64,000 bases of DNA from Idiomarina sp. Lineage in GTDB: Bacteria > Pseudomonadota > Gammaproteobacteria > Enterobacterales > Alteromonadaceae. Location: assembly GCA_020832105.1 (NCBI GenBank), contig JAFIFH010000029.1, positions 1-64,000 of the forward strand, written 5' to 3'. Below the pieces are notes generated by a model. That model was not told the DNA's origin. It searched no databases and saw nothing but the letters and a program-made list of their open reading frames with translations. The position numbers and the translations under genes are program-made. This document shows, piece by piece, positions 50,091 through 64,000 of the stretch; within the stretch, counting starts at the first letter, position 1; each line of letters starts with the position of its first letter.

Positions 50091-53000
50091 TTGCCGCATC
50101 ACGCAAGCCTGCATATGCTTACTCGCATGCGAAAAATTTTGATTGTACTCAGTGTTTTAATCCTGTTGCTGGCCGCTGCTATCGGCGCGGCCTATAGCTA
50201 TGTGCAATATCAACTGAGTCAGTTACCAGTTGAGAACCTCAATTACCGGGTTGCAGCAGTGGGCTACAAACATATCCGCCTGGCCGAAGTTAGCTTTACT
50301 TATATTGAACCGGCACGGAATGTAGACGCGCTCAGCTCAGGTTTTCGAAGTGGCGAAGCCGCCCTTAAGGCCCCCGTGCGCCTCGACGATGTATTCGTTA
50401 CATGGCAGTGGCGCGGCTTCAGCCCCAACCTGCAAATTGTTGAGGTCGGCCATGTTGACTTTACCTTGTCCCACTGGCCTGCTGCTTTTCTCGAACATAG
50501 TGAAGATGCAGGCAGCGAGGGCCTGTCGCTACCTGATGACTGGCGCGTCACCGACGATCTCCCCCACCACTTTGAGATTAAAAGCTTTATTGTCGACCTG
50601 CCCTGCGCTGATCGCTGCTACTATTCTGGCAGACTTTCTTTTTCCAGCGACAATAAAGACCCGCTGCTTACCACCGATGAACCTCAGCGCACCCAGCTTA
50701 ACTTATCCTTGAGCCCGCATCAGAACTTCCATGAGATGGAGCAACTTAATATCTATGTGGATTATCGCGTCATTGATGACCTGCCCGAGTTAAATTTGAC
50801 TGTGCAAAGTCCCATGGCGCTGAATCTCAAATTAAGCCAACAATTGAGCAGAACTCGCCAACTCTCAGGTGAGCTGATGCTACAACTTGAACCTTCAGCG
50901 CACTGGATGTTTAGCGAAATCAACCAATGGCGGCCGCAATTCGAAGCCCAGAGCGAATCTGTATTGAGTTTTTTAAGTGACAGCCTGGAGGTTAATGTAT
51001 CGTATCACAGCAATTTACCAGACACCCCCATACAGCGCTGGGCTAATGAAATCGAGGTTGAGCTTACCGCTGACATCACCTTACAAGATCAATTGTTCGC
51101 TAACTTTACCGGCCAGCTCGAACGTGATGACTATATCGACCTAACGGGTAGCCTTGATGCCACTATATGGCCTGGCCTAAGGGCTAACTTGTCCCCTTTG
51201 CTCGCGCCTCGAGACCCAGCAGAGCAATCGGCATTTCAGGCCGATGCCCTTCTCGCTCAGCTGGAATCACCAGTAACCCTGCGCTCTAACTGGGCCTTAG
51301 CGTTTCCACCAGGCACTGAAATCAGTAGCTGGGTGGACCAGGCAGACGGTAGCCTTTCCTTTGAGTTTGCGAGTGATAACGAATTTGTCTTTGACCAGTT
51401 TGCGTTAATGGAGCTAGGCAGCCAGGCGGAGATCACGCTGGTTGCGGGCATGGTGGATAGAGTCGACCTGATAGTTGCCGGGGGATTAGATCTACTCACC
51501 TTTAATGAGCAACTGACGCCGCTGAGCATAGATCCAGACCGAGTGCATTGGTCAGTGCATATCGACACAGAACAGATGATTAACTGGGCTGACTTGCCGG
51601 TTCACGTGCAGGCGCAAAGCACTGGTAACTCCGACATCACTCTTGATGCACAGTTGCGCGCAAATATTCAAAGCTACATTGAGCAAACCAGTGATGACCC
51701 GCTTACGCAGCTTGCAATCCGCAGCCAGCGTGGGCACGTACTGTTGCGCCAGCCTGAACTACGCATGGATAGCATGCATGCCCACGACATTGAACTTGAG
51801 TTGCCATTTGCTATGCAATTTTCGTTGGTCGATGGCTTACACATAGAAGCCGCCGATACCGCGCACTTGCGCATGGCTCTGAGTATCCCCATGGATGAAC
51901 AAGTCATTCAAACGCCCCAGCTGGAGGTGACGCTGAACCAATGGCAGTGGCATATGCCAATGGCTGACATTGCAGACAGTCGGTTCAGTGCCGATATGGA
52001 TGTCAATGCGGCCAATGTACAAGCCCCCGCCGTATTACCCATTAACTGGCGCTGGTTTGGTCAGGTGTCCGCCGAGCCTCTGCGCGAACATCCCGGGCTG
52101 CAGGCAAACGGTCGGCTCACGAATAGCGCCGGTTTAGTGTTACGTCAACAACTAGCAGGATCGACACAACAGCTCACCCTTGATTGGCAACTGGCTGATA
52201 TTTTCTGGTTAGCAGGCAACCCCATAGCTGCAACCCTAGATGGGCTATGGCCTGAATTACTTACTCTGGAGCGCGGCCGTACCCGTGCTTCAGGGCAAAT
52301 TCAGCTGCCACTTAACAACGCGCCGCTGCTGATGAATGCCGACCTTGAGCTTCTCGATGTGGCTGGCATCTATGATACGGCCAGTTTCTCTGGGCTAAGG
52401 GCACAACTCAGTGGGCGCACCGACGGCAGCAGCTTTTCCGTGGCACTGGATGAGAGCTACCTGCAACGCCTGCAATATGGCATGACTCATGGGCCTGGTG
52501 AACTGCAGCTAAGTTATCAGGGGCAATGGGCGGCGCCATTGGACGGCCAACTGGAGGTGAAAGCTAACCGACTTAGCGTCCTTAATGGTATTGTTTCGCT
52601 CGTTCCGGCACATTATGACCTAAGCCAGCCTGAGCACATTTTTAACGTCGATATCTCGCAACTTGATATTGCACGGCTGCTGGCCGAGTACCCGGCTACC
52701 GATATTCAGGGGAGTGGTTTATTATCAGGGAGCATTCCGGTGCGCTATTCAGCACAGGGGATATTTGTCGACAACGGCCGCATTAGTGCGCTCCCGCCTG
52801 GTGGGCAACTCCAGTATCGCTCCGAGCGAGCGCGGCAAATGGCACAAAGTAATATGGCGATGGGGATTGTCATGGATGCGCTGGACGACTTTCATTATTC
52901 GGCACTCCAAGGCGATGTGACCTACCTCGAAGACGGCACCCTGCAACTGGGTTTGCTGGTAGAGGGGCGTAACCCAAGCCTTGAGCAAGGCCGGCCCGTG

Positions 53001-53126
53001 CGCCTGGAAATCACAGTACAGGAAGACTTACCCGCACTGCTTGCCAGTTTACAATTGACTAACCAACTGAATGAATTGATACAGGAGCGTGTTCAACAGC
53101 GCTTAATTCAGGGACTACGCAACTAA
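50091..53126 (+). CDS. ydbH: Intermembrane phospholipid transport protein YdbH (AsmA-like)
   Basis: 1011 residues: a signal anchor near the N-terminus (KILIVLSVLILLLAAAIGAA), then a long run of beta-strand-rich, DUF3971-type sequence ending in the conserved GNPS/RPVRLEITVQ and LTNQLNELIQERVQQRL region. E. coli YdbH, with TamB and YhdP, is one of three redundant inner-membrane-anchored bridges carrying phospholipid to the outer membrane; YnbE caps it on the outer-membrane side. The likely start is TTG at 50091 (AGGA 8 bases upstream); ATGs at 50115 and 50127 are alternatives. Confidence 0.88.
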   Translation: MPHHASLHMLTRMRKILIVLSVLILLLAAAIGAAYSYVQYQLSQLPVENLNYRVAAVGYKHIRLAEVSFTYIEPARNVDALSSGFRSGEAALKAPVRLDDVFVTWQWRGFSPNLQIVEVGHVDFTLSHWPAAFLEHSEDAGSEGLSLPDDWRVTDDLPHHFEIKSFIVDLPCADRCYYSGRLSFSSDNKDPLLTTDEPQRTQLNLSLSPHQNFHEMEQLNIYVDYRVIDDLPELNLTVQSPMALNLKLSQQLSRTRQLSGELMLQLEPSAHWMFSEINQWRPQFEAQSESVLSFLSDSLEVNVSYHSNLPDTPIQRWANEIEVELTADITLQDQLFANFTGQLERDDYIDLTGSLDATIWPGLRANLSPLLAPRDPAEQSAFQADALLAQLESPVTLRSNWALAFPPGTEISSWVDQADGSLSFEFASDNEFVFDQFALMELGSQAEITLVAGMVDRVDLIVAGGLDLLTFNEQLTPLSIDPDRVHWSVHIDTEQMINWADLPVHVQAQSTGNSDITLDAQLRANIQSYIEQTSDDPLTQLAIRSQRGHVLLRQPELRMDSMHAHDIELELPFAMQFSLVDGLHIEAADTAHLRMALSIPMDEQVIQTPQLEVTLNQWQWHMPMADIADSRFSADMDVNAANVQAPAVLPINWRWFGQVSAEPLREHPGLQANGRLTNSAGLVLRQQLAGSTQQLTLDWQLADIFWLAGNPIAATLDGLWPELLTLERGRTRASGQIQLPLNNAPLLMNADLELLDVAGIYDTASFSGLRAQLSGRTDGSSFSVALDESYLQRLQYGMTHGPGELQLSYQGQWAAPLDGQLEVKANRLSVLNGIVSLVPAHYDLSQPEHIFNVDISQLDIARLLAEYPATDIQGSGLLSGSIPVRYSAQGIFVDNGRISALPPGGQLQYRSERARQMAQSNMAMGIVMDALDDFHYSALQGDVTYLEDGTLQLGLLVEGRNPSLEQGRPVRLEITVQEDLPALLASLQLTNQLNELIQERVQQRLIQGLRN

Positions 53127-53387: not shown

Positions 53388-53768
53388 ATGCAATTTATAA
53401 CCATGTTATCCCCCGCACGCTTATTATTCTTGTGCAGCCTGTTTTTCGCCTCTTTTGCTATTACCGGAACCGCCCATGCTAATGAGATGTCCTTACAGCA
53501 AGCAATGAGCGAACTCAGCGGCGCGAAAGCGCAGGGCCAGGTGGGTGAAAAAAGCAACGGCTACCTTGGCGTTGTGAATGACGCCGCACAGGCGCACATG
53601 ATCGTCAATCTGATTAACGACGCTCGCCGTTCAGAATACGCACGCATTGCTGAACAGAACAATATTGCGGTTGCAGATGTCGAGGCTATGGCAGGCAAGC
53701 GAGCCATCGAGCGCACGCCTGCAGGGCAGTATATTCAGCTTGATGGTGAGTGGGTCGTGAAACGCTAA
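53388..53768 (+). CDS. ydbL: Periplasmic protein YdbL (DUF1318)
   Basis: 126 residues with a signal peptide ending near TAHA, then the DUF1318 motifs AKAQGQVGEKSNGYLG and VNLINDARRSEYARIAEQNNI. In E. coli YdbL acts as a chaperone that keeps YnbE from over-assembling. Twelve bases after ynbE, completing ydbH-ynbE-ydbL. Confidence 0.92.
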   Translation: MQFITMLSPARLLFLCSLFFASFAITGTAHANEMSLQQAMSELSGAKAQGQVGEKSNGYLGVVNDAAQAHMIVNLINDARRSEYARIAEQNNIAVADVEAMAGKRAIERTPAGQYIQLDGEWVVKR

Positions 53769-53785
53769 CGACCTTCTATGTTTAG

Positions 53786-53807
53786 AGAGCGAGCCACGGC
53801 TCGCTCT
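53786..53807 (+). terminator. Hairpin after ydbL, weak terminator
   Basis: AGAGCGAGCC (53786-53795) and GGCTCGCTCT (53798-53807) form a strong stem, but only TGCTTTG follows, so termination would be partial or the hairpin protects the 3' end. Confidence 0.55.
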
Positions 53808-53944
53808 TGCTTTGCCCGCTCCCCTATTGCTGTCATGATCCCCGTAATGATCCCATCCACGCCTTTACACTGACTATTTTGAGCTATTCCTCAGGTAGAT
53901 ACGTAAATTGTTCATGAAGACGACAGATCTTTGCTGATGTTTTC

Positions 53945-53951
53945 CTATACT
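53945..53951 (+). promoter_or_regulatory. Sigma-S-like -10 element ahead of a small gene
   Basis: CTATACT preceded by TCC fits the extended -10 favoured by sigma-S, which has a C before the TATACT. No TTGACA-like -35 stands at 17 bases, which also fits sigma-S. About 60 bases upstream of the ATG at 54014. Confidence 0.35.
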
Positions 53952-54013
53952 TCATGAGTAACTAGAAGGTAGCTAAGTGACCTATCACAAGGGAAGCTGC
54001 TAAGGGGATAGCA

Positions 54014-54181
54014 ATGAAAACGATTAAACTAGCAAAAATGGAAAGACAGCCTCAACGCCCTAAGTGGCTCTCGTTGAGCAACATTACCTACGCGGGGTTA
54101 ACCATATTCGCGTTGGTACTTTTTATGCAGGACGCTCAGGCCTCAGCCTCCTTGTCGACGTTTTTGTTGAACCTGCAATAA
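54014..54181 (+). CDS. Small single-span membrane protein (55 residues)
   Basis: Open frame of 55 codons starting MKTIKLAKMERQPQRPKW: a basic N-terminus, one hydrophobic segment (ITYAGLTIFALVLFM, about 28-42) and a short tail ending FLLNLQ. AAGGGG lies 6 bases before the ATG. The last 39 bases overlap the 3' end of the convergent nuclease gene. The tidy charge pattern, ribosome site and -10 support a real gene; there is no family match I know. Confidence 0.55.
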   Translation: MKTIKLAKMERQPQRPKWLSLSNITYAGLTIFALVLFMQDAQASASLSTFLLNLQ

Positions 54182-56299
54182 AATATTCGCTGCCGCCTCC
54201 GCATCATCCAGTGCCCGGTGATGACGCTGTAAGTCAATGCCCAAGGCTGCACACAGCTTGCCCAACGAGTAGGATTTGTGCCCTGGAAAATACTGCCGAG
54301 CCAGCCTTACCGTACATTGCTTAGGTAGGCGCAAAGACCGTTCGCATCGTTCAAACTCACGCTTAATGAACCCATAGTCAAAATTCACATTATGAGCGAC
54401 AAAAATAGCCCCGCGCATAAAGGATTCGATCTCCGTGAGCAACTCACTAAATAATGGTGCGTCTTTTACCATCTCATTACTAATCCCGGTTAACTGCGTA
54501 ATACGTTGAGGAATATGACGTTGCGGGTTGACCAACGATTGCCAGCGCTCAACGATACTGCCCTCGCGCACTTTAACCATACCTACTTCAGTCACCCGAT
54601 GCCCGCTATGGTTTCCCCCTGTGGTTTCCACGTCGATCACCACATACTCCTGCTGCGGATTAAACTGCCATATGACGGACTGGACCTGCACCTGAATACC
54701 AACTCGGTTGAGCATTTGTATACTGATCAACTGATTACGGCGTAAACTATCGCCTGGTGCTTTAATCTCTTCGAAACGTAGGCCTTGCTCGTCAATCACC
54801 ATTAAATCAGGAAAACCGTCACTTAACCCATGGTAGTCCTGCGCCATGGCTCTGAGCACCTCGATCAGGGTATGTAGCGAGGTGTTGCTGGTTAACAACT
54901 TGAGGATTTCAAGCATCTTTGGATGCCAGCGAAACACCCCATTCCCCTTGCCATACTTTTCCGTGCTGACCCTAACCAGATACTGATACAGATCATTCTG
55001 ATCGCTGAAGCTGTCGAGCTTTGCCTCGATCTCTGTGGCTAACTGGGTATAGAACAGATTTGCCTTAAGCACCGGTGGCAGCCGGTCAAATTCATTGCAT
55101 AGTCCAGCCTTCGGATTTTCAAATAACTCGGTCCAAAATACCAAACCAAATAGCGCCCGCCACAATCGATTCTCGGTTTTAAAGGCTGCTAACCCCTGAC
55201 CTTGATAAAGCGCTTTAACGCCGGCCTCCACGCTACCCAGGTAAGCTTCATCCAGTGCCAGCGGTGCACCACTTTGACGCAACATGTCAGTCAGTATGCT
55301 GGTGCGCTTGCGGTGATATTTTCGCGCATAAAAATCCTCTGCAAAGACCAGCAGCGCCTCATTCGGTGGATCGTCGATAAGCTGTTCAAGTGCCTCACGA
55401 ACCTCTTCTACCTGGCCGCTAGCATATTGCTGGCGCAAACGCTTTTCTACTGCGCCGGGTGCTGCGGATTTTTGCAGATACGCTAACCCCAGAGATTCAT
55501 CATGTTCGGCTAAGCTACTACTGAGCACACGACGCCCGAGTTGCTCATAAAAGATATCTTTGGCATCGACTGCCTGCGGCCCCTTAACAAGCTCAGGGAC
55601 CTGCGCCGCCAGCGCAGACAGGCCGCTGTCAGGGGTGACTTTAAGTTGCGTATTGAAGTGCTCAAACAGGAAGCTACTTTGGGCTTCCTCGCGGGTTGCA
55701 AAGCGGGCCTGTGCCTGATGCTGCAATCGACGGGTACGCATGATGCCGAGATCACGCATAGACAACTGATTCAACCGCGCCTGGGTCGTGCCAAAATACA
55801 GGAATAAAAAATATTGCATCCGCTGTAGCTGCGCCTGCACCACATAATGCTGTTGTAACCAGCCCTCGGCTTCAGCGAATACCACATGATGACTCACATA
55901 GTCCTGCCATACCCCTTTGCGCGCAGATTTCACCGGTGGCGCTACGGAAGTGGCTGCAACCTCAGCGATACCCTGCAGTTCGGCTTTATTTAGCTGGGTT
56001 AGTACATATGGCCAATCGGCTCCCCTGGCATGGCGCACTAACCCTGCCGCAAAAAGCAATTGCAGGGCCTGTTCACTATCCTTAATTTCCTCATAATGCA
56101 GCGAGTCGCGGCGAACATAGGGCGACTGACGATTGAAAATCCGCACGAGAACGCACTGGGCGTCCTCAGGCAGGTGTTGAAAGCCCTCGATATAAGCACT
56201 ATCGTCCTGATCCAGCAGGTGGCTGCAGGTACCTTCGAGGTACGCAGTAAACTCTTTAAAATGATCAAGATAGTACTTAACCGGCAATGCTTTCATCAC
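54143..56299 (-). CDS. VRR-NUC nuclease fused to a DEDDh (DnaQ-like) 3'-5' exonuclease
   Basis: 718 residues with two nuclease domains. The first 490 residues are helical and FAN1-like. The VRR-NUC domain (about 480-543) has GFPDLM with Asp498 and EEIKAPGD with Glu511 and Lys513, the PD-(D/E)xK core of structure-specific FAN1 nucleases. Residues 552-710 are a DnaQ-type exonuclease: Exo I DVETT (Asp556, Glu558), Exo II HNVNFD (Asp641), Exo III HRALDDA (His694, Asp699). All catalytic residues are intact. It starts with GTG at 56299 (AGGA 7 bases upstream) or ATG at 56296, 15 bases after recD, so it is the last gene of recC-recB-recD. A combined flap/crosslink endonuclease and exonuclease is inferred. 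Confidence 0.88.
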   Translation of the reverse strand: MMKALPVKYYLDHFKEFTAYLEGTCSHLLDQDDSAYIEGFQHLPEDAQCVLVRIFNRQSPYVRRDSLHYEEIKDSEQALQLLFAAGLVRHARGADWPYVLTQLNKAELQGIAEVAATSVAPPVKSARKGVWQDYVSHHVVFAEAEGWLQQHYVVQAQLQRMQYFLFLYFGTTQARLNQLSMRDLGIMRTRRLQHQAQARFATREEAQSSFLFEHFNTQLKVTPDSGLSALAAQVPELVKGPQAVDAKDIFYEQLGRRVLSSSLAEHDESLGLAYLQKSAAPGAVEKRLRQQYASGQVEEVREALEQLIDDPPNEALLVFAEDFYARKYHRKRTSILTDMLRQSGAPLALDEAYLGSVEAGVKALYQGQGLAAFKTENRLWRALFGLVFWTELFENPKAGLCNEFDRLPPVLKANLFYTQLATEIEAKLDSFSDQNDLYQYLVRVSTEKYGKGNGVFRWHPKMLEILKLLTSNTSLHTLIEVLRAMAQDYHGLSDGFPDLMVIDEQGLRFEEIKAPGDSLRRNQLISIQMLNRVGIQVQVQSVIWQFNPQQEYVVIDVETTGGNHSGHRVTEVGMVKVREGSIVERWQSLVNPQRHIPQRITQLTGISNEMVKDAPLFSELLTEIESFMRGAIFVAHNVNFDYGFIKREFERCERSLRLPKQCTVRLARQYFPGHKSYSLGKLCAALGIDLQRHHRALDDAEAAANILLQVQQKRRQGG

Positions 56300-56314
56300 T
56301 ACGACACGTCCTGC

Positions 56315-58384
56315 TTATAAATTCAGATTTCCAGCCCTTGAGGTTTGCCGCGACACCGCCTGCTCTAACACCTGCCACCGCGGCACCACCATGGTTAATT
56401 GCTCTGCGGCACGGGTCACCCCGGTGTAAATCAATTCGCGGCACAAGACTGCATTGTCAGTGGAGGGCATGACCATCACCGTATGGGCAAATTCAGACCC
56501 CTGCGATTTGTGCACGGTCATCGCGAAAACCGTTTCGACCTGGCGTAAACGGCTTGGCAAAATCCAGCGCAGGCGGCCTTCACTATCCACAAACACCACC
56601 CGTTCACGACCGTCCCGCGGCCAGGTCAATACCATGCCTATGTCACCATTACGCAAGTTCAGGCTATAATCATTTTGAGTCACCATCACCGGTCTGCCCT
56701 CATACCACTGGGACGGCTTAGGCATGAAGGTTAACCAGCGCTCTACCTGATGGTTCAGCCCCTCAACTCCGAACACGCCATCGCGAATTGGAGAGAGTAA
56801 CTGAAAGCCCGCATAGGCTTTGAGTACGTCGCGGGCCCAATGTTCGATCTCAGTGTCCTGCGCGTCTGCTGCCGGGCGCCGGCTCTCAATTGTCTGCCAG
56901 TATGTTGCAAAGCCTTGCAGGCACACCAAGCGCAGTGATTCCAGCAATTGCTGTTCACGCGCGAGGGGGGTATCGTCATCCCTAAAGCCTGGGGTTAATA
57001 ATCGAATATCGGTAAATAAGCGCGCGTCATCCTGGGCTTTAAGTAATTCACTGATTCGCGGCAAGTCACCGGTATTTAACGCATGAGCCAGGTGGCCAAT
57101 GCCGCTACGACCATCAAAACGTCGGCTGACTCTGAGCATCACCACATGTTGCAAGTACTCTGGCCCCTCGCTATCAAATAGCTGCATGGGCAACCTGGCT
57201 TTACTGACTGACTGCAAATAATCAAAACTTTGTTGGCGATAGCGGCCCGCCTCAGCCCCTGCACACAACTGACCTAACACTGCACCGGCTTCTACCGAAG
57301 CCAGTTGGTCTTTGTCTCCCAATAAAACCAGCTGCGCATGCTTTGGCAGCGCTGCGAGAATAGCGTCCATCATCTCAATGTCCACCATACTGGCTTCATC
57401 GATCACCAGCACATCAAGACTCAACGGGTTACCCTGATGATAGCGAAAGGCGCGGGTGTGCTGTTGGGTACCCAGTAACTTATGCAAGGTCAGGCTGTCG
57501 CTGCTGATCGCATTAAATGTGTCCTGCCAGGCCGCAAACTGAGGCGCCACCCGCATCTCATCGAGGGCGTTTTGAATCGACTCCTTCAGTCTGGCTGCCG
57601 CTTTGCCTGTGGGGGCTGCTAAGCGGATCTTTAACGCCTGGCCGCCCTGCTGCATGGCCAAACGCTGCAGCATCGCAAGTAAGCGAACCACCGTATACGT
57701 CTTACCTGTGCCGGGCCCGCCGGTAATCACACTAAAGCGACTTCGCAAGGTATTGGCGCAGGCTAATTTTTGCCACGGCACCCGCTCTATGGCGGAGGTT
57801 GTTGCAGCGGTCGTTGGCGCCTCTAGCGGAAACAATTCGTTGAGCATGGTGTTCAATGTCGCACCAGGCACGGCTTCAAAGGCACCACTTTTCATGCGCC
57901 CGCGCAGCTGACTGGCAATGCGCTGCTCGTATAACCAGAAACGCCTTAGGTATAATGCGCCCTGCGCATAAACCAAAGGTTCACTGAGATCGTCACTCGA
58001 GGGGGCTGCACCGACCACAGCGACCGCAGGACTGGCTGCAAAAGCCTGCTGAATATCCGCTACCGTGACCTTTGCAAGACAGTCCGCTGGCGTTTGCGTC
58101 AGCGTCTCGGTTTGCGCAAACTGACGCGGCGACAAGCCAAGTAGCTCATGTGGGTCACTGAGCAAGGTATCAAGATGCAAACACACATGACCGCGCATCA
58201 CTTGATAAGACAATAATGCAGTCATCAGTGCGATCACTTCGCTGCTGTTGGTTTGTGCAGCATCACTAAGGGGTGCGGTGGTCACCATGCGGGCCAGAGC
58301 TACATCAAGTGCCCCCAACCAGCCTGATTGCTGCCACTGCTGCAGTTGTACCAGCATGGTCTCGTTATTCGCCAGCTCGCTCAT
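56315..58384 (-). CDS. recD: Exodeoxyribonuclease V alpha subunit RecD
   Basis: 5'-3' helicase subunit of RecBCD. Walker A GGPGTGKT at 222-229, Walker B DVLVIDEASMVD, LLGDKDQLASVEAG, and the C-terminal helicase motifs ITVHKSQGSEF-like (here AMTVHKSQGSEFAHTVMV) and LIYTGVTRAAEQL. 689 residues, longer than E. coli's 608. ATG overlaps the recB stop by one base. Confidence 0.96.
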   Translation of the reverse strand: MSELANNETMLVQLQQWQQSGWLGALDVALARMVTTAPLSDAAQTNSSEVIALMTALLSYQVMRGHVCLHLDTLLSDPHELLGLSPRQFAQTETLTQTPADCLAKVTVADIQQAFAASPAVAVVGAAPSSDDLSEPLVYAQGALYLRRFWLYEQRIASQLRGRMKSGAFEAVPGATLNTMLNELFPLEAPTTAATTSAIERVPWQKLACANTLRSRFSVITGGPGTGKTYTVVRLLAMLQRLAMQQGGQALKIRLAAPTGKAAARLKESIQNALDEMRVAPQFAAWQDTFNAISSDSLTLHKLLGTQQHTRAFRYHQGNPLSLDVLVIDEASMVDIEMMDAILAALPKHAQLVLLGDKDQLASVEAGAVLGQLCAGAEAGRYRQQSFDYLQSVSKARLPMQLFDSEGPEYLQHVVMLRVSRRFDGRSGIGHLAHALNTGDLPRISELLKAQDDARLFTDIRLLTPGFRDDDTPLAREQQLLESLRLVCLQGFATYWQTIESRRPAADAQDTEIEHWARDVLKAYAGFQLLSPIRDGVFGVEGLNHQVERWLTFMPKPSQWYEGRPVMVTQNDYSLNLRNGDIGMVLTWPRDGRERVVFVDSEGRLRWILPSRLRQVETVFAMTVHKSQGSEFAHTVMVMPSTDNAVLCRELIYTGVTRAAEQLTMVVPRWQVLEQAVSRQTSRAGNLNL

Positions 58385-61300
58385 CAGGTTGCTCCTTGCT
58401 TACAGTAGCTGTCGAGTTGCTCAATGAGCGCTTTTGCTGGCCGATCAAAAAACGCACCATGCTCAGCACCGTTATGGCCGCGTAAGAACAAATACACCAC
58501 ACCGCCAATATGGGTGTCATAGTCATATGCATCACCCAGGCGGGCTTGCAATAGTCGATGCAGCGCCAGCGTATACAGCACATACTGCACGTCATAGCGG
58601 CTACTGAGCATCTTATCGCGCATCGCAGACTGGGTATAATCTGCGTCACCTGGGCCCAGGTAATTCGACTTGTAGTCGGCCACGTAGTAACGCCCTTCAT
58701 GCTCAAATATTAAATCTATAAAGCCCTTTAACATGCCGTTCAGATAGTTGTCCTGCAGTGCAGGTCGCGGGTGTTCAGGCATCACATGCGCGGCGATGAG
58801 ATCATCAAGCTTGCGGGCACTGACCTGATGCAGAGCAAACCAGAATTCTGGTTCGGCCTTGTAATGCTGCAAGCCGGCTAGCGAAAATGTCTGGCCATTA
58901 TCCAGCTCGAAAAGGGTCGTTACATACAGTGCCAGCCAACTATCGAGCTGCTCGCGAAGTTCCAGCCATATGCCATGGGTGCAACGCTTATCGATAAGTA
59001 ACTGGCGTGACTGCGAATCTTCGGCGATGACGGCAAAGCCCAACTCTGCAGCATCCTCAAGGATATTGTGCAAAAAGGTGCCCGGCTCTGCGCCACGTGG
59101 AAAATGATGCAGATGCGGCCCACCTTCGCTGGCAATCACAGGCTGCACCGCTTCAGCGGGCTCTGCGTCGGCACCGTCTTCTTCATACAGGTTTGCCTCC
59201 AACGCACTTTCCGGCTCACGTAAACCGGTATATTTAAGGGCCGAGTAACTGGCTATCCACCAGCTTGCAAATCGATGCTGTGCCGGCATCTGGCGCACCA
59301 CTGGCTGACCGATTTGCGCAACGGGTGGGGTCCAGTGTTGATTGGTTACCGCCGGTTGCGGACACACCCGAATACCAGGTTGATTTGACCAGGTGCGTTT
59401 CGCCTGGCTGATAAAGTCAGCGGGCATGCTGTCTTTGCCCGCTGAGGCTCCAGCCAGATAGGCCAATGCGGAATGTTGCCAGTCTTTGACTGGCGCCACA
59501 CTTGCCCAGCAGGCAAATCGGGAACGGGTTAAGGCCACGTACAAGCGACGGATTTCCTCACCCAGGCGCTCTTCGTCTACCTGCTTTATCACCTCAGGGG
59601 TAGCCTGCATGCTATGCCGTAACTCACCCTCGTCATCGTGATAAGAAAACAATGTGCGCTTTTCATCAATCGCTCGGCTGGCACTACTAAAGGGTAAAAA
59701 CACCAACGGGTATTCGAGCCCTTTAGACTTGTGCACCGTAACGATCTGGACCAGTTGGGAATCACTTTCCAGCCGCACGCTTTGCTCGTCGCTACCTTCT
59801 TCGTCGGCGTGGTAAATCTTTTCCTGCAAAAAACGCAACAACGCATGCTCACCATCAAGCATGCCAGCAGCCTGCTGCAGTAATTCCGCTAAATGCAGAA
59901 GATCGGTAGATTCGCGCTCCCCACCAATCTCACTGAGTAGCCGCGTCGCAATATCAAAGTCGTGAATAACCTGATGTAACATTGCCAGTACACCCTGGGT
60001 TTGCCAGCTATGCGCGTACTGCAAGAACTGCTCTACCCGGCTATCCCAGGCCAAATCATCATGTTGCAAGTGGGCCAGCTCACTCACCGGCACATCTAAT
60101 AGTCTGGTATACAACGCGTTGGTCAGCCCCTGACGTTGCTGCGGATACGCACAAGCGTGCAATATAGCCAGCACATCTCTGGCCACTGCGGTGTCGTAGA
60201 CCGAGTTCCGGTCCGACAGGTACACACTAGCGACACCTCGCGCACGCAGATGCTGTTGCACCAGGTAGCCTTCGAAACGACTATTAACCAGGACGGCGAT
60301 ATCGGCACTTCGCAACGCGTTTAGCTTGCCATCCGCCTGACGAATGCCGGTGAGCCCCTGCTCAGCGCCCTGCAGTAAGGACACAATGTAGCTGGCACAG
60401 CTCGCCGCTTGCTGCTCGTTGTAATCACCTTTGCTGATTGGCTTGCTCGGGTCTTCAGTGTTCTCATCAAGCCATAGTTGTAGGGCTTCACTGACCTGCT
60501 CACCATCAATCACCAATGACGCTTGCTGGCCATGGGCTGCCACCTCAACAAAAGGAACCTGATTACCGTTAGGCCGATTAAATAAGAAGGCTTTCTTCGG
60601 CAATGAGGACTCAGCAGGCAAAAAGACATGGTTGCTGGCCGCCACCATGTCATGGCTAGAACGGAAGTTACGGGCCAGGGTAAAATGCCGGCCTGCAGTG
60701 TCCCGCCGAGCTTGCAAATAGGTGAAAATATCGGCTCCCCTGAATGCATAAATCGCTTGTTTGGGGTCGCCAATTAAATAGATAGCGCTATTTGCAGGCT
60801 GCTCTGCCAATCGATAAATGGTATTGAAAATAGTGTATTGGTCGGGGTCTGTGTCCTGAAATTCGTCGATCATCGCGATCGGGTACTGCGCCCGAACACG
60901 TTCCGCCAACTCATGCCCTGCTGGTTGTTGCAGGGCCTTGCGAGTTTGCAGAATAATATCGTCGAAACTCATTAAGGCATGCTGGTGAAGTTGTTGGCTA
61001 AAGCGGTGTTTGATCCACTGCGCGGCGTGGTAAAGCAGCTCAGTTTTGATGCTCGGCCCGCTGTCCTGTAATGCTTTTAGCTCAGCGAGTTTACCGGTAA
61101 ATGTGAGGTGCGCGGTGTCGATACTCAGCAACTGAGCAAAGCCCTCAACCGAATAATTATCGAGCATGGCAGGGGTCACCTTAGGTAGCGCATGGACCGC
61201 CTCAGCCACAGGTAGATCCAACCACGCCTGCACTGGCTGTAATGCCTTTTTGGTGGCATTGGGCGCTACTTTACGTTTATTCAGTAACCAGCCCTGGGCA

Positions 61301-62103
61301 TCTGCTTCATCGACAAACTGCAACAATTGCGGCAAATAGCTTTGCCATGCACGATGCACCTCAGTCACCCGAGCCTCGTACTCGGCCCGTTTTGTCGCCA
61401 CCAGCGCGGTGATATCTAATGGCTGTGGCGGCGCGTCGTCGACCATCGCCCACAATGGCAAACTGAGTTTAGCTAACCCTTGTGGGGAACTGGCAACATC
61501 AGCGACTGCTGCATAATCATCTGCCTGCAGGGGGTAGACCATATTGCGCCAATAGTCTCGCGCAGCGTCATCACGAAACTTTTGCAACTCGGTGGTCAGC
61601 TCCTGAGAGAACAGGCTGCCACTGCTAAATGCGTGTTCGCGTAACAACCCCTGACACCAGCTGTGGATGGTTTTTACACTCGCCTCGTCCATCCATTCAC
61701 TGGCAGTCTGCAGTGCCTGCGCGCAACGCGCCCAACTGGCGATTGGATAGCTTTGTCGCAACGTGACCAAAAATGGGTCGACAGCGTCACATGTTGCATC
61801 CTCAGCCTGGCGAAACCATCGCGCTGCCTCCACCAGCCTTAAACGAATACGGTCTTTTAACTCTGCCGTGGCCGCTTTAGTAAAGGTGACCACCAAAATA
61901 TTTGGCGGTAAGAGTGGCGCAGCGTCGCTACCGTCACCATGCTCAGCGGCTGCGCCCACATCTTTGATATGGGCAAGAATAAACCGAATATACAAAGCTG
62001 CAATGGTATAGGTCTTTCCAGTCCCGGCGCTGGCTTCAATCAAACTACTGCCCACCAGGGGTAGTTGTAGTGGGCTACTCAGGGTGACACTAGGCGTACT
62101 CAT
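58384..62103 (-). CDS. recB: Exodeoxyribonuclease V beta subunit RecB
   Basis: 3'-5' helicase and the only nuclease of RecBCD; loads RecA after Chi. N-terminal UvrD-type helicase starts with the Walker A EASAGTGKTYT, followed by IDEFQDTDPDQY, IGDPKQAIYAFRGAD, VHKSKGLEYPLVFLP and RRLYVALTRSRF. The C-terminal nuclease has Asp1130 (GFIDLIFEHEG), Asp1143 and Lys1145 (ADYKSNYLG). 1239 residues. ATG overlaps the recC stop by 4 bases. Confidence 0.97.
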   Translation of the reverse strand: MSTPSVTLSSPLQLPLVGSSLIEASAGTGKTYTIAALYIRFILAHIKDVGAAAEHGDGSDAAPLLPPNILVVTFTKAATAELKDRIRLRLVEAARWFRQAEDATCDAVDPFLVTLRQSYPIASWARCAQALQTASEWMDEASVKTIHSWCQGLLREHAFSSGSLFSQELTTELQKFRDDAARDYWRNMVYPLQADDYAAVADVASSPQGLAKLSLPLWAMVDDAPPQPLDITALVATKRAEYEARVTEVHRAWQSYLPQLLQFVDEADAQGWLLNKRKVAPNATKKALQPVQAWLDLPVAEAVHALPKVTPAMLDNYSVEGFAQLLSIDTAHLTFTGKLAELKALQDSGPSIKTELLYHAAQWIKHRFSQQLHQHALMSFDDIILQTRKALQQPAGHELAERVRAQYPIAMIDEFQDTDPDQYTIFNTIYRLAEQPANSAIYLIGDPKQAIYAFRGADIFTYLQARRDTAGRHFTLARNFRSSHDMVAASNHVFLPAESSLPKKAFLFNRPNGNQVPFVEVAAHGQQASLVIDGEQVSEALQLWLDENTEDPSKPISKGDYNEQQAASCASYIVSLLQGAEQGLTGIRQADGKLNALRSADIAVLVNSRFEGYLVQQHLRARGVASVYLSDRNSVYDTAVARDVLAILHACAYPQQRQGLTNALYTRLLDVPVSELAHLQHDDLAWDSRVEQFLQYAHSWQTQGVLAMLHQVIHDFDIATRLLSEIGGERESTDLLHLAELLQQAAGMLDGEHALLRFLQEKIYHADEEGSDEQSVRLESDSQLVQIVTVHKSKGLEYPLVFLPFSSASRAIDEKRTLFSYHDDEGELRHSMQATPEVIKQVDEERLGEEIRRLYVALTRSRFACWASVAPVKDWQHSALAYLAGASAGKDSMPADFISQAKRTWSNQPGIRVCPQPAVTNQHWTPPVAQIGQPVVRQMPAQHRFASWWIASYSALKYTGLREPESALEANLYEEDGADAEPAEAVQPVIASEGGPHLHHFPRGAEPGTFLHNILEDAAELGFAVIAEDSQSRQLLIDKRCTHGIWLELREQLDSWLALYVTTLFELDNGQTFSLAGLQHYKAEPEFWFALHQVSARKLDDLIAAHVMPEHPRPALQDNYLNGMLKGFIDLIFEHEGRYYVADYKSNYLGPGDADYTQSAMRDKMLSSRYDVQYVLYTLALHRLLQARLGDAYDYDTHIGGVVYLFLRGHNGAEHGAFFDRPAKALIEQLDSYCKQGAT

Positions 62104-64000
62104 TTGGCACCCCCCTGCCCTGAACCGTAGGAGGTAAGCTGTGCTTTATCCATCATCGCTTTAAAACTCTGATAATGACGTTCACTGACGCCTTCGAAAT
62201 CCGCCATGGTTAATGCCTCAGCCTGTGGGTAAAAACGCGACAGATACACCAGGCTCTCCGCCTGTTTACTATAGGCTTGCGTTAGATCGAAGGATTTCGG
62301 CTTATCGAGCCAGGCCCAGGCCAGCGGCAAGGCGGTGGCCAGAGGCTGGCTCAGCGCATGGTCCATCAATCTGCCGAGCTCATCCAGATAGCCGCGGGCA
62401 TCGTCTGCAGACAGCGCTGCCAGCCGCACACTCGCCCCTTCGCCGACCAGCAGGGTTTCCACCTGATGGCTACCGGCAAATACCAGCTGGGCGATAAGAT
62501 GGCGCAGCCATAGCGAAACACAGTGTTTAGGCAGCACGTACTGGCTACGTGACGTGATATGGGCGACTTTACTGACTTTTACCAACACCTGTGTGAGCTG
62601 AGTATCCTGCTGCCGATGACGGTATAGATCGGTTAATTCCCCTTCTATCGCAAAACGACCTAAAGGCAGATTAAACGAAGTATCAGCAATATTCAGGTAA
62701 TCCCCTGCCCAGTAAGGCCGAATCGTGTCACTGATTGTGGCCACTGAATCTGCAAGGCGGGTTTTCAGGTGGTGTACTTCATAAGAGAGCGGTAACTGAC
62801 CCCGGCGGCGGATCCTGGCGAACGTATCATCGATGATCTCCGCACAGGCTGAGTGATGGGCAGGTTTGTGCAACAGCACCTGGGTCACCAGTTCATGCTT
62901 TACCTTCCACTCGTCGAGCTTATTTAAATTAAAGGCTTCGTCATCATAAGACTCACTGCTCAAATCCTGTAACGAAACCCCGAGCCGTTTACGCGCAAAT
63001 AATTGCGCGGGCTCGCGTAGCAGCCATTCCAGATCATAGAGTTGTAACGGTGCCTCAGGCTCGAAGGGCTCTAACTGCGCGGCGTCTTGCAATGGCGAAG
63101 AAATATTCTGGTGACCGTTCCTATGTATCGGCAGCCACTCTCTGGCATAGGTAAAAAATTGAGTATGACTGCCTTCGGGCGCGCTGAAGTAGTCTGCGGC
63201 GAAGGGCTGCAAACGATGGCTTGTGGTCAAACGATCAAGTAACAGGTCCTCGTCGTCCGCCGCAGGTTCGGCTTGCCAGCCAGCGGCAAGATGATCGCGC
63301 AGCTGCCCCACCAGCACCGACGGCGGCATTTCACTGTTGTCCTGCGCGCTCATGCCAACCCAACTGAGGTAGAATTGTTCCCGCGCAGACAGTAATGCCT
63401 CGAGAAATAAATAGCGGTCATCTTCGCGCCGTGAACGATCCCCTGGCTGATAATGTCCGGCCATCAAATCAAAGTCAGTGGCCGGGGTGCTGCGCGGGTA
63501 GTCAGCATCATTCATGCCGAGCAGGCACACTCGTTTAAATGGAATCGCACGCATTGGCATCAGCGTGGCGAAATTCACACTGCCAGCCATAAAGCGCTGG
63601 TTGAGGCCGCTTTCATCTACCGCCGAAAGCCATACTTCCTGCACAATGTTATAACGCAGGTCACCGTCAAACTGCGCCTCATCAATACTCTCAGCCAGCT
63701 CATCAAGGGCCTCGCGCAAACGATTGAGCATCAATTGCTCACTGTCCTCACGAGGACTAAACAGGTCATCCAGCAGTTGCTGTAAAATAGGATACCAGGC
63801 GCTAAAACTTTTTGCGTTGGCCAGCGCCCGCCAGTAAAACTGCAGGCAATTGATAATATCTGCCAGCGCACCCGCTGTCTGTGCTTGCATCCCTGCCACT
63901 TCAGTATAGGGCTCGATGCCTTGCCATGGCTGATTATCTACTTCGCCAGCGGCGTAGCCATACAGCATTCTTTGCAGCGCAAACAACCAGCTGTTCTCTG
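62100..64000 (-). CDS. recC: Exodeoxyribonuclease V gamma subunit RecC, 3' part
   Basis: The C-terminal 633 or so residues of RecC; the frame stays open to the window edge, reading ENSWLFALQRMLYGYA, a typical RecC stretch. CLLGMNDADYPRSTPATDFDLM and RSRREDDRYLFLEALLSARE are conserved; the last part is the inactive nuclease-like domain that sits over RecB. RecC scans for Chi. The N-terminus lies outside the window. Confidence 0.95.
   Translation of the reverse strand, partial: ENSWLFALQRMLYGYAAGEVDNQPWQGIEPYTEVAGMQAQTAGALADIINCLQFYWRALANAKSFSAWYPILQQLLDDLFSPREDSEQLMLNRLREALDELAESIDEAQFDGDLRYNIVQEVWLSAVDESGLNQRFMAGSVNFATLMPMRAIPFKRVCLLGMNDADYPRSTPATDFDLMAGHYQPGDRSRREDDRYLFLEALLSAREQFYLSWVGMSAQDNSEMPPSVLVGQLRDHLAAGWQAEPAADDEDLLLDRLTTSHRLQPFAADYFSAPEGSHTQFFTYAREWLPIHRNGHQNISSPLQDAAQLEPFEPEAPLQLYDLEWLLREPAQLFARKRLGVSLQDLSSESYDDEAFNLNKLDEWKVKHELVTQVLLHKPAHHSACAEIIDDTFARIRRRGQLPLSYEVHHLKTRLADSVATISDTIRPYWAGDYLNIADTSFNLPLGRFAIEGELTDLYRHRQQDTQLTQVLVKVSKVAHITSRSQYVLPKHCVSLWLRHLIAQLVFAGSHQVETLLVGEGASVRLAALSADDARGYLDELGRLMDHALSQPLATALPLAWAWLDKPKSFDLTQAYSKQAESLVYLSRFYPQAEALTMADFEGVSERHYQSFKAMMDKAQLTSYGSGQGGAK

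Follow-up and report, generated by a model that had tools for sequence, protein, structure and literature searches.

A FAN1 nuclease continued by a DEDDh exonuclease behind recD in Idiomarina: a predicted repair enzyme, probably under SOS control in most lineages

At the end of a recCBD gene cluster in an Idiomarina genome, a single open reading frame joins two nucleases, which raises the question of what one polypeptide would do with both of them and whether its place behind recD betrays its partner. The stretch of DNA analyzed, referred to here as the window, comprises 64,000 nucleotides, and the features that bear on this question are collected in Table 1. A preliminary description of the locus had recognized a VRR-NUC domain followed directly by a DnaQ-like domain, each with its catalytic site, and this is borne out by Pfam, by a PDB sequence search, and by residue alignment; the domain search does return VRR_NUC, and all three matches (FAN1_HTH, VRR_NUC, and RNase_T/DEDDh) exceed the Pfam gathering cut-offs, the position of FAN1_HTH being the same in a second, class-wide profile scan. 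The N-terminal part is more than had been described, however. Residues 4-545 align to the full-length FAN1 of Pseudomonas aeruginosa (PaFAN1, 4r89, E 5.1e-20), so that together with the HTH match the VRR-NUC assignment stands as part of a whole FAN1, and the reading of this region as VRR-NUC alone does not. Residues 551-715 align to the PolC-type exonuclease 2p1j (E 8e-28), with almost no linker between the two parts, and the DEDDh residues are D556, E558, D641, H694, and D699.

Table 1. Features of the window that are discussed in the text, and loci at which a FAN1-only gene has a DinG-like neighbor
Feature	Position	Strand	Basis or remark
fan1-DEDDh fusion gene	54143..56299	minus	open ORF, 718 aa; full-length homologues; start codon GTG, with an ATG directly next
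DEDDh 3'-5' exonuclease domain, residues 553-707	54179..54643	minus	Pfam PF00929 (RNase_T), 8.9e-40
VRR-NUC, residues 472-542 (Pfam-matched extent)	54674..54886	minus	PF08774, E 1.9e-12; holds D498, E511, K513
E376, fourth FAN1 catalytic acid by alignment	55172..55174	minus	PaFAN1 4r89 alignment; 53/53 homologues
FAN1_HTH, residues 9-88	56036..56275	minus	Pfam PF21315, E 3.4e-19
15-base spacer, recD to fusion gene	56300..56314	minus	recD upstream, same strand
Possible decayed LexA box, CTGAATTTATAAGCAG	56311..56326	minus	two mismatches; overlaps recD end
recD	56315..58384	minus	TIGR01447, 1.1e-160
recB	58384..62103	minus	TIGR00609, 1.3e-291
recC	62100..63998	minus	TIGR01450, 6.3e-304; cut by window edge, 1195 aa in genome contig
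FAN1-only gene with DinG-like neighbor	L124, L131-L135, L137-L140, L143, L144, L147-L149

The features of FAN1 follow one another in the window protein in the order HTH, helical/TPR region, and VRR-NUC, as seen from the Pfam matches to the first and last and from the alignment and fold of PaFAN1. Pfam FANC_SAP, which describes the SAP subdomain, gives no match to the window protein at 0.001, and the one FAN1-only relative scanned for it (L019) has a match just below the cut-off. The AlphaFold model, for which an alignment of 53 fused sequences served as input, has a mean pLDDT of 94.4 and a pTM of 0.87, with 645 of the 718 residues at 90 or above. When the parts of the model were compared with known structures by Foldseek, the FAN1 part matched PaFAN1 (5y7q) with a TM score of 0.83 (by target length), an rmsd of 4.1 Å, and 22% identity, and the best match of the DEDDh part was the DinG protein of Staphylococcus aureus (8zef; rmsd 1.8 Å over 169 columns, 35% identity), the epsilon subunit 2ido being matched as well. 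PaFAN1 thus shares with the fusion the domain order over residues 4-545, the catalytic residues, and the fold over its whole length, but it ends after VRR-NUC, where the fusion protein continues with the DEDDh domain. The 718-residue protein is a complete bacterial FAN1 plus a DEDDh 3' exonuclease.

Both active sites appear to be under selection. All 53 homologues keep the FAN1 quartet E376, D498, E511, and K513 unchanged, and 52 of them have every DEDDh residue, the exception being L123, in which E558 is lost; in an alignment of 88 fused proteins, a few rows of which are one gene fetched twice, D498, E511, K513, and the five DEDDh residues are kept in all 88. The homologues with conserved catalytic residues are only 36-57% identical to the window protein, and it is this retention at such distances that makes both sites look selected. 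By our own reading of the alignment, E376 would pair with E834 of human FAN1, the catalytic quartet of which is given as D960/E975/K977/E834 in the accessible part of PMC4348246. As for the exception, the fusion protein of L123 (L123:2308-4464), which comes from outside the class of the window, has lost the second DEDDh acid (DIGTSG), and its exonuclease may be inactive because of that.

The fusion is not peculiar to the window. It was found in 17 of the 58 genomes searched (its own and those of relatives), the match lying in two pieces of one frame in G001 and G018, while in G047, G053, and G057 the match covers the FAN1 part only. Within the genus of the window, it was not found in 10 of 17 genomes searched and is therefore dispensable. 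The nearest named relative is Aliidiomarina maris (56-58% identity), after which the lineage of the window is probably Aliidiomarina. A scan of genome contigs with a single query, which provides a lower bound in that it covers the best 80 loci, gave 73 loci with both parts (two of them, L098 and L102, broken in their records) and seven with the DEDDh part only; the two-part loci among these 80 belong mainly to Alteromonas, Glaciecola, Paraglaciecola, Salinimonas, and Pseudoalteromonas, and also to Neptunomonas, Aliidiomarina, and MAGs labelled Hellea. FAN1_HTH was matched in a class-wide sample (19 of 369 genomes) and in a phylum-wide one (55 of 398), and the long-frame loci fetched from these samples outside the family of the window were full-length fusions in eight of eight cases from seven genomes, whereas the ninth frame fetched (L124, 687 aa) is FAN1-only. 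Plasmids carry the gene as well, since two records from Bradyrhizobium and three from Pseudoalteromonas hold the fusion over 99% of its length; its product is labelled "exonuclease domain-containing protein" in all three records with a listed gene, and in one also hypothetical protein. Another plasmid hit (H10), considered as a second VRR-NUC-DEDDh family, was rejected, as it lies in a PolC-type polymerase (NCBIfam NF001688, TIGR01405), and among the closed plus-strand frames listed for a gut phage hit (H11) none reaches 120 aa.

In a tree of the FAN1 part built from a sample of 68 rows, with a midpoint root for drawing, all 45 fused rows lie on one side of a branch and the 23 FAN1-only rows on the other, with a support of 100/100. 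Judged by these sequences, the fusion is a conserved clade of Gamma- and Alphaproteobacteria, many of them marine, with one origin in the tree. The earlier view that FAN1 proteins are normally separate from DnaQ-type enzymes therefore holds for the FAN1-only proteins seen, but not for what is a well-populated clade of fusions. The Neptunomonas rows are nested in those of Glaciecola, which suggests a transfer. No paper on a FAN1-DEDDh fusion was found in the accessible part of the open-licence literature, and the accessible parts of PMC4103454, PMC9635880, PMC11981726, and PMC1189080 make no mention of one.

The position of the gene suggested at the outset a role with RecBCD; as an accessory, the fusion protein would prepare or trim ends for RecBCD in double-strand-break repair. 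The arrangement itself is confirmed: the fusion gene begins 15 bases after recD on the same strand, with recB and recC before recD. No site resembling a promoter or a terminator came up when 53700-56700 was scanned on the minus strand by consensus, and no unusual fold was seen in the 15-base gap. The two genes adjoin and run in the same direction in four genomes (G000, G005, G010, and G011), separated by 15 bases in the window, by about 36 in A. maris, and by 95 in both G010 and G011, and the recD-linked proteins (the window and L031, L002, and L003) form one clade with a support of 100/99. All four genomes belong to the genus of the window, however, and although recD was located in all 17 genomes with the fusion, in the other 13 it is not adjacent. 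In three unlinked congeners, recD and the fusion gene are 26-34 kb apart on opposite strands, the latter with its own exact LexA box, and among the 73 named contigs with both parts from the best 80 loci, A. maris alone has recD within the fetched stretch (at most 9 kb on each side of the gene, and shorter at contig ends). Even where the genes are linked, a long near-perfect hairpin without a T tract separates them in two of the four species (L002 and L003, the two with 95-base gaps; folding energies of -61 and -69 kcal/mol, with z scores near -9 and -10). Partnership with RecBCD is rejected as a general rule on the adjacency in only 4 of 17 genomes, and the fusion protein as a RecBCD accessory is a distinctly improbable explanation. 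In G001, the sole unlinked congener examined for an empty site, the downstream genes of the window were not found near recD. Past the end of the fusion gene, the window holds a ydbH-like gene (50091-53126) and a DUF1318 gene (53388-53768) on the opposite strand, which are also present in those recD-linked relatives whose stretches extend that far.

A different association emerges from the DNA upstream of the fusion genes. A gamma-type LexA box, defined as CTGTN8ACAG, exact or with one mismatch plus an A+T-rich spacer, lies between -150 and +20 at 72 of 87 gamma-type fused loci with distinct upstream DNA (29 of them exact); of 726 control ORFs taken from these loci, 10 have one (none exact), and dinucleotide shuffles of the 87 upstream regions contain a mean of 1.6 boxes and at most 6. 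Exact boxes alone, sought between -250 and +20, are found at 30 of 87 fused loci versus 1 of 722 controls. As the loci are not independent, they were also clustered at 70% identity, leaving out three loci outside the order of the window and one plasmid, and in 29 of the 36 clusters at least half of the members have a box. The alpha-type box (GAACN7GAAC or GTTCN7GTTC within 250 bases) is present in all eight alpha-type loci, namely, L119-L123 from outside the class of the window, L153 from Bradyrhizobium, and L087 and L089 from the MAGs labelled Hellea, versus 3 of 41 other ORFs of the same loci. Among FAN1-only loci, an exact gamma-type box was seen in 3 of 23 over a wider region (-250 to +320), alpha-type and near matches not being counted. 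The fusion is thus probably an SOS gene in most lineages seen, induction being judged from the boxes, and the DNA-repair role that had been proposed for the protein now has their support.

It has to be noted that the gene of the window is among the 15 of 87 loci without a gamma-type box. The best match upstream of it has two mismatches (Table 1), and since a match at least as good turns up in 29 of 500 shuffles, it is weak as a decayed box. Within the genus, a box was found in none of the four recD-linked species, versus an exact one in all three unlinked species; the linked species being one clade, this difference counts as one event at most. In front of recC, none of the four linked species has an exact or near box, such matches as occur in that stretch lying inside genes. 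Lacking a box and following recD immediately, the gene of the window is probably co-expressed with recCBD in this lineage. Elsewhere in the window genome, exact gamma-type boxes shortly precede recA and three genes of S24 peptidases (lexA/umuD-like), in the best of these cases 11 bases before a lexA-like frame of 216 aa, but the exact pattern occurs at 26 places genome-wide versus 18 for a reversed control pattern; the pattern by itself is thus weak and single boxes prove little, and it is conservation across species that carries the argument.

The neighborhoods of FAN1-only and fused genes differ in a second respect. Of 23 FAN1-only loci, 15 have a gene for a DinG-like helicase close by (Table 1), touching or overlapping the FAN1-only gene in most and about 1 kb away in L143, whereas none was found at 96 fused loci searched, 72 of which have at least 2.5 kb of downstream DNA, nor at six further fused loci (from the linked species and two plasmids). 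All three FAN1-neighbor helicases scanned have the Pfam domains Helicase_C_2 and DEAD_2, and two of the three have an N-terminal PD-(D/E)XK match. In the accessible part of PMC12796719, PA1865 of P. aeruginosa is said to act in crosslink unhooking, with citation of FAN1 papers, its expression rising on exposure to UV-C and to ciprofloxacin and falling with hydrogen peroxide. No account of a FAN1-DinG gene pair was found in the accessible part of the open-licence literature.

Two other neighbors were considered as partners and set aside. At 36 of 88 fused loci (e.g., L048:8602-8889), a gene immediately before the fusion encodes a small HNH-like protein, in which Cys and His motifs are visible by eye and for which Pfam gave no match in the two cases scanned. 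This gene was not found in the window genome, and in Neptunomonas it may have moved together with the fusion. Of these 36 loci, 30 have a box no more than 150 bases from the fusion gene and none has one before the HNH-like gene, the start of which is extrapolated from a match, and the latter gene was rejected as an SOS partner. On the Bradyrhizobium sp. 172 plasmid p172_1, which is typed as conjugative, the gene of an SOS response-associated peptidase (L153:4158-4907) is directly upstream of the fusion; an SRAP (HMCES-type) neighbor was matched also in L122 and partly in L121, and three loci, one of them partial, do not make it a general, conserved partner.

Action against phage DNA had been mentioned as a further possibility, and a few neighbors could be read in favor of an anti-phage nuclease: the surroundings of the fusion on one Bradyrhizobium plasmid include a gene whose annotation places it in a GTPase-associated system, and a neighbor in L119 has a sub-threshold match to a Swt1-like HEPN domain. 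A match of the DEDDh part to the PADLOC candidate PDC-S48 points the same way, but in a run on the fusion protein, RecD, and one HNH-like neighbor, the PADLOC matches of the fusion protein were confined to that part, and no defence model matched most of the fusion protein. The few neighbors scanned in the window, Alteromonas, and Glaciecola are unlike defence genes, none of 16 phage records covers 80% of the fusion protein, and the LexA boxes point to repair, all of which leaves a defence function highly improbable.

The reading that we favor, with a probability of roughly 0.6, is a bifunctional DNA-repair nuclease in which FAN1 nicks and the DEDDh domain trims, mostly SOS-controlled and, in the lineage of the window, linked to recD. 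The FAN1 half would bind branched, gapped, or crosslinked duplex, the presumed substrate, and nick one strand; the attached exonuclease would then, if the cuts follow this order, degrade the strand with the newly made 3' end across the lesion or extrusion, and a 3' end would be left for resynthesis. Both activities are predictions from sequence and structure and would fit a group of crosslink-repair enzymes, for which MrfB offers a precedent in mitomycin repair (PMC11194089, in its accessible part). Against this reading it counts that a 5'-3' exonuclease activity is already inherent in FAN1 proteins (according to the accessible part of PMC4103454), so that a fused 3'-5' exonuclease is not strictly needed, and that the DEDDh domain could have other targets, such as RNA or unrelated 3' ends. 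The dispensability of the fusion within the genus, the lost acid of L123, and the gamma-type loci without a box, that of the window among them, weigh on the same side. A related alternative is that the DEDDh domain cleans 3' flaps or 3' damage independently of the FAN1 cut, the fusion serving only to share a promoter. DEDDh domains of a similar type do occur alone and fused to another partner, but the domain order, the short linker, and both active sites are kept in the aligned fusions save one row, which suggests a joint task and makes this alternative unlikely.

The coupling of incision and excision in the favored reading has counterparts elsewhere. In Cho+Exo proteins, a Cho/UvrC-type GIY-YIG nuclease and an epsilon-type exonuclease likewise place a repair endonuclease and a DEDDh domain in one chain, but with a GIY-YIG endonuclease and the opposite domain order, and for the mycobacterial Cho-like fusion digestion from the nick was proposed (both from the accessible part of PMC1564403). 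In a tree of DEDDh domains, 10 rows of the Cho+Exo type (three of them confirmed as GIY-YIG/DEDDh proteins by Pfam and the others assigned by length and likeness) group with 31 FAN1-fused rows, apart from eight other DnaQ-type proteins, with a support of 99/96, and seven GIY-YIG rows from Bacteroidota fall inside the FAN1-fused rows with modest supports of 94/92 and below; as the branches are long and the loci were found by likeness to the window protein, no direction of transfer can be read from this tree. The ExoDinG protein of S. aureus, the best structural match of the DEDDh part, is a crosslink-repair fusion as well, and crosslink resistance requires both of its activities (PMC12345164, accessible part), though its exonuclease is joined to a helicase and that of the FAN1 fusion to a nuclease. 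As described in the accessible part of PMC12559329, human FAN1 nicks 3' of a loop, which is then removed by the 3'-5' exonuclease of polymerase delta, the same sequence of incision and excision that is proposed here; the human pair, however, are separate proteins acting with PCNA and RFC, and the exonuclease is part of a polymerase. A broader version, in which the fusion is a self-contained nick-and-excise machine for crosslink unhooking or loop removal, mostly under SOS control, and the DEDDh domain has been recruited repeatedly (by FAN1, Cho/UvrC-type nucleases, and DinG), is plausible but somewhat short of an even bet.

If this broader version is true, a single bacterial polypeptide does the jobs of human FAN1 and the polymerase delta exonuclease, and such a natural fusion would be a compact system in which the coupling of nicking to excision could be studied directly. 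Bacterial FAN1 has been little studied, and the LexA boxes connect it with the SOS response; the arrangements seen also suggest that bacterial crosslink repair exchanges its partners among FAN1, DinG-type helicases, and DEDDh exonucleases.
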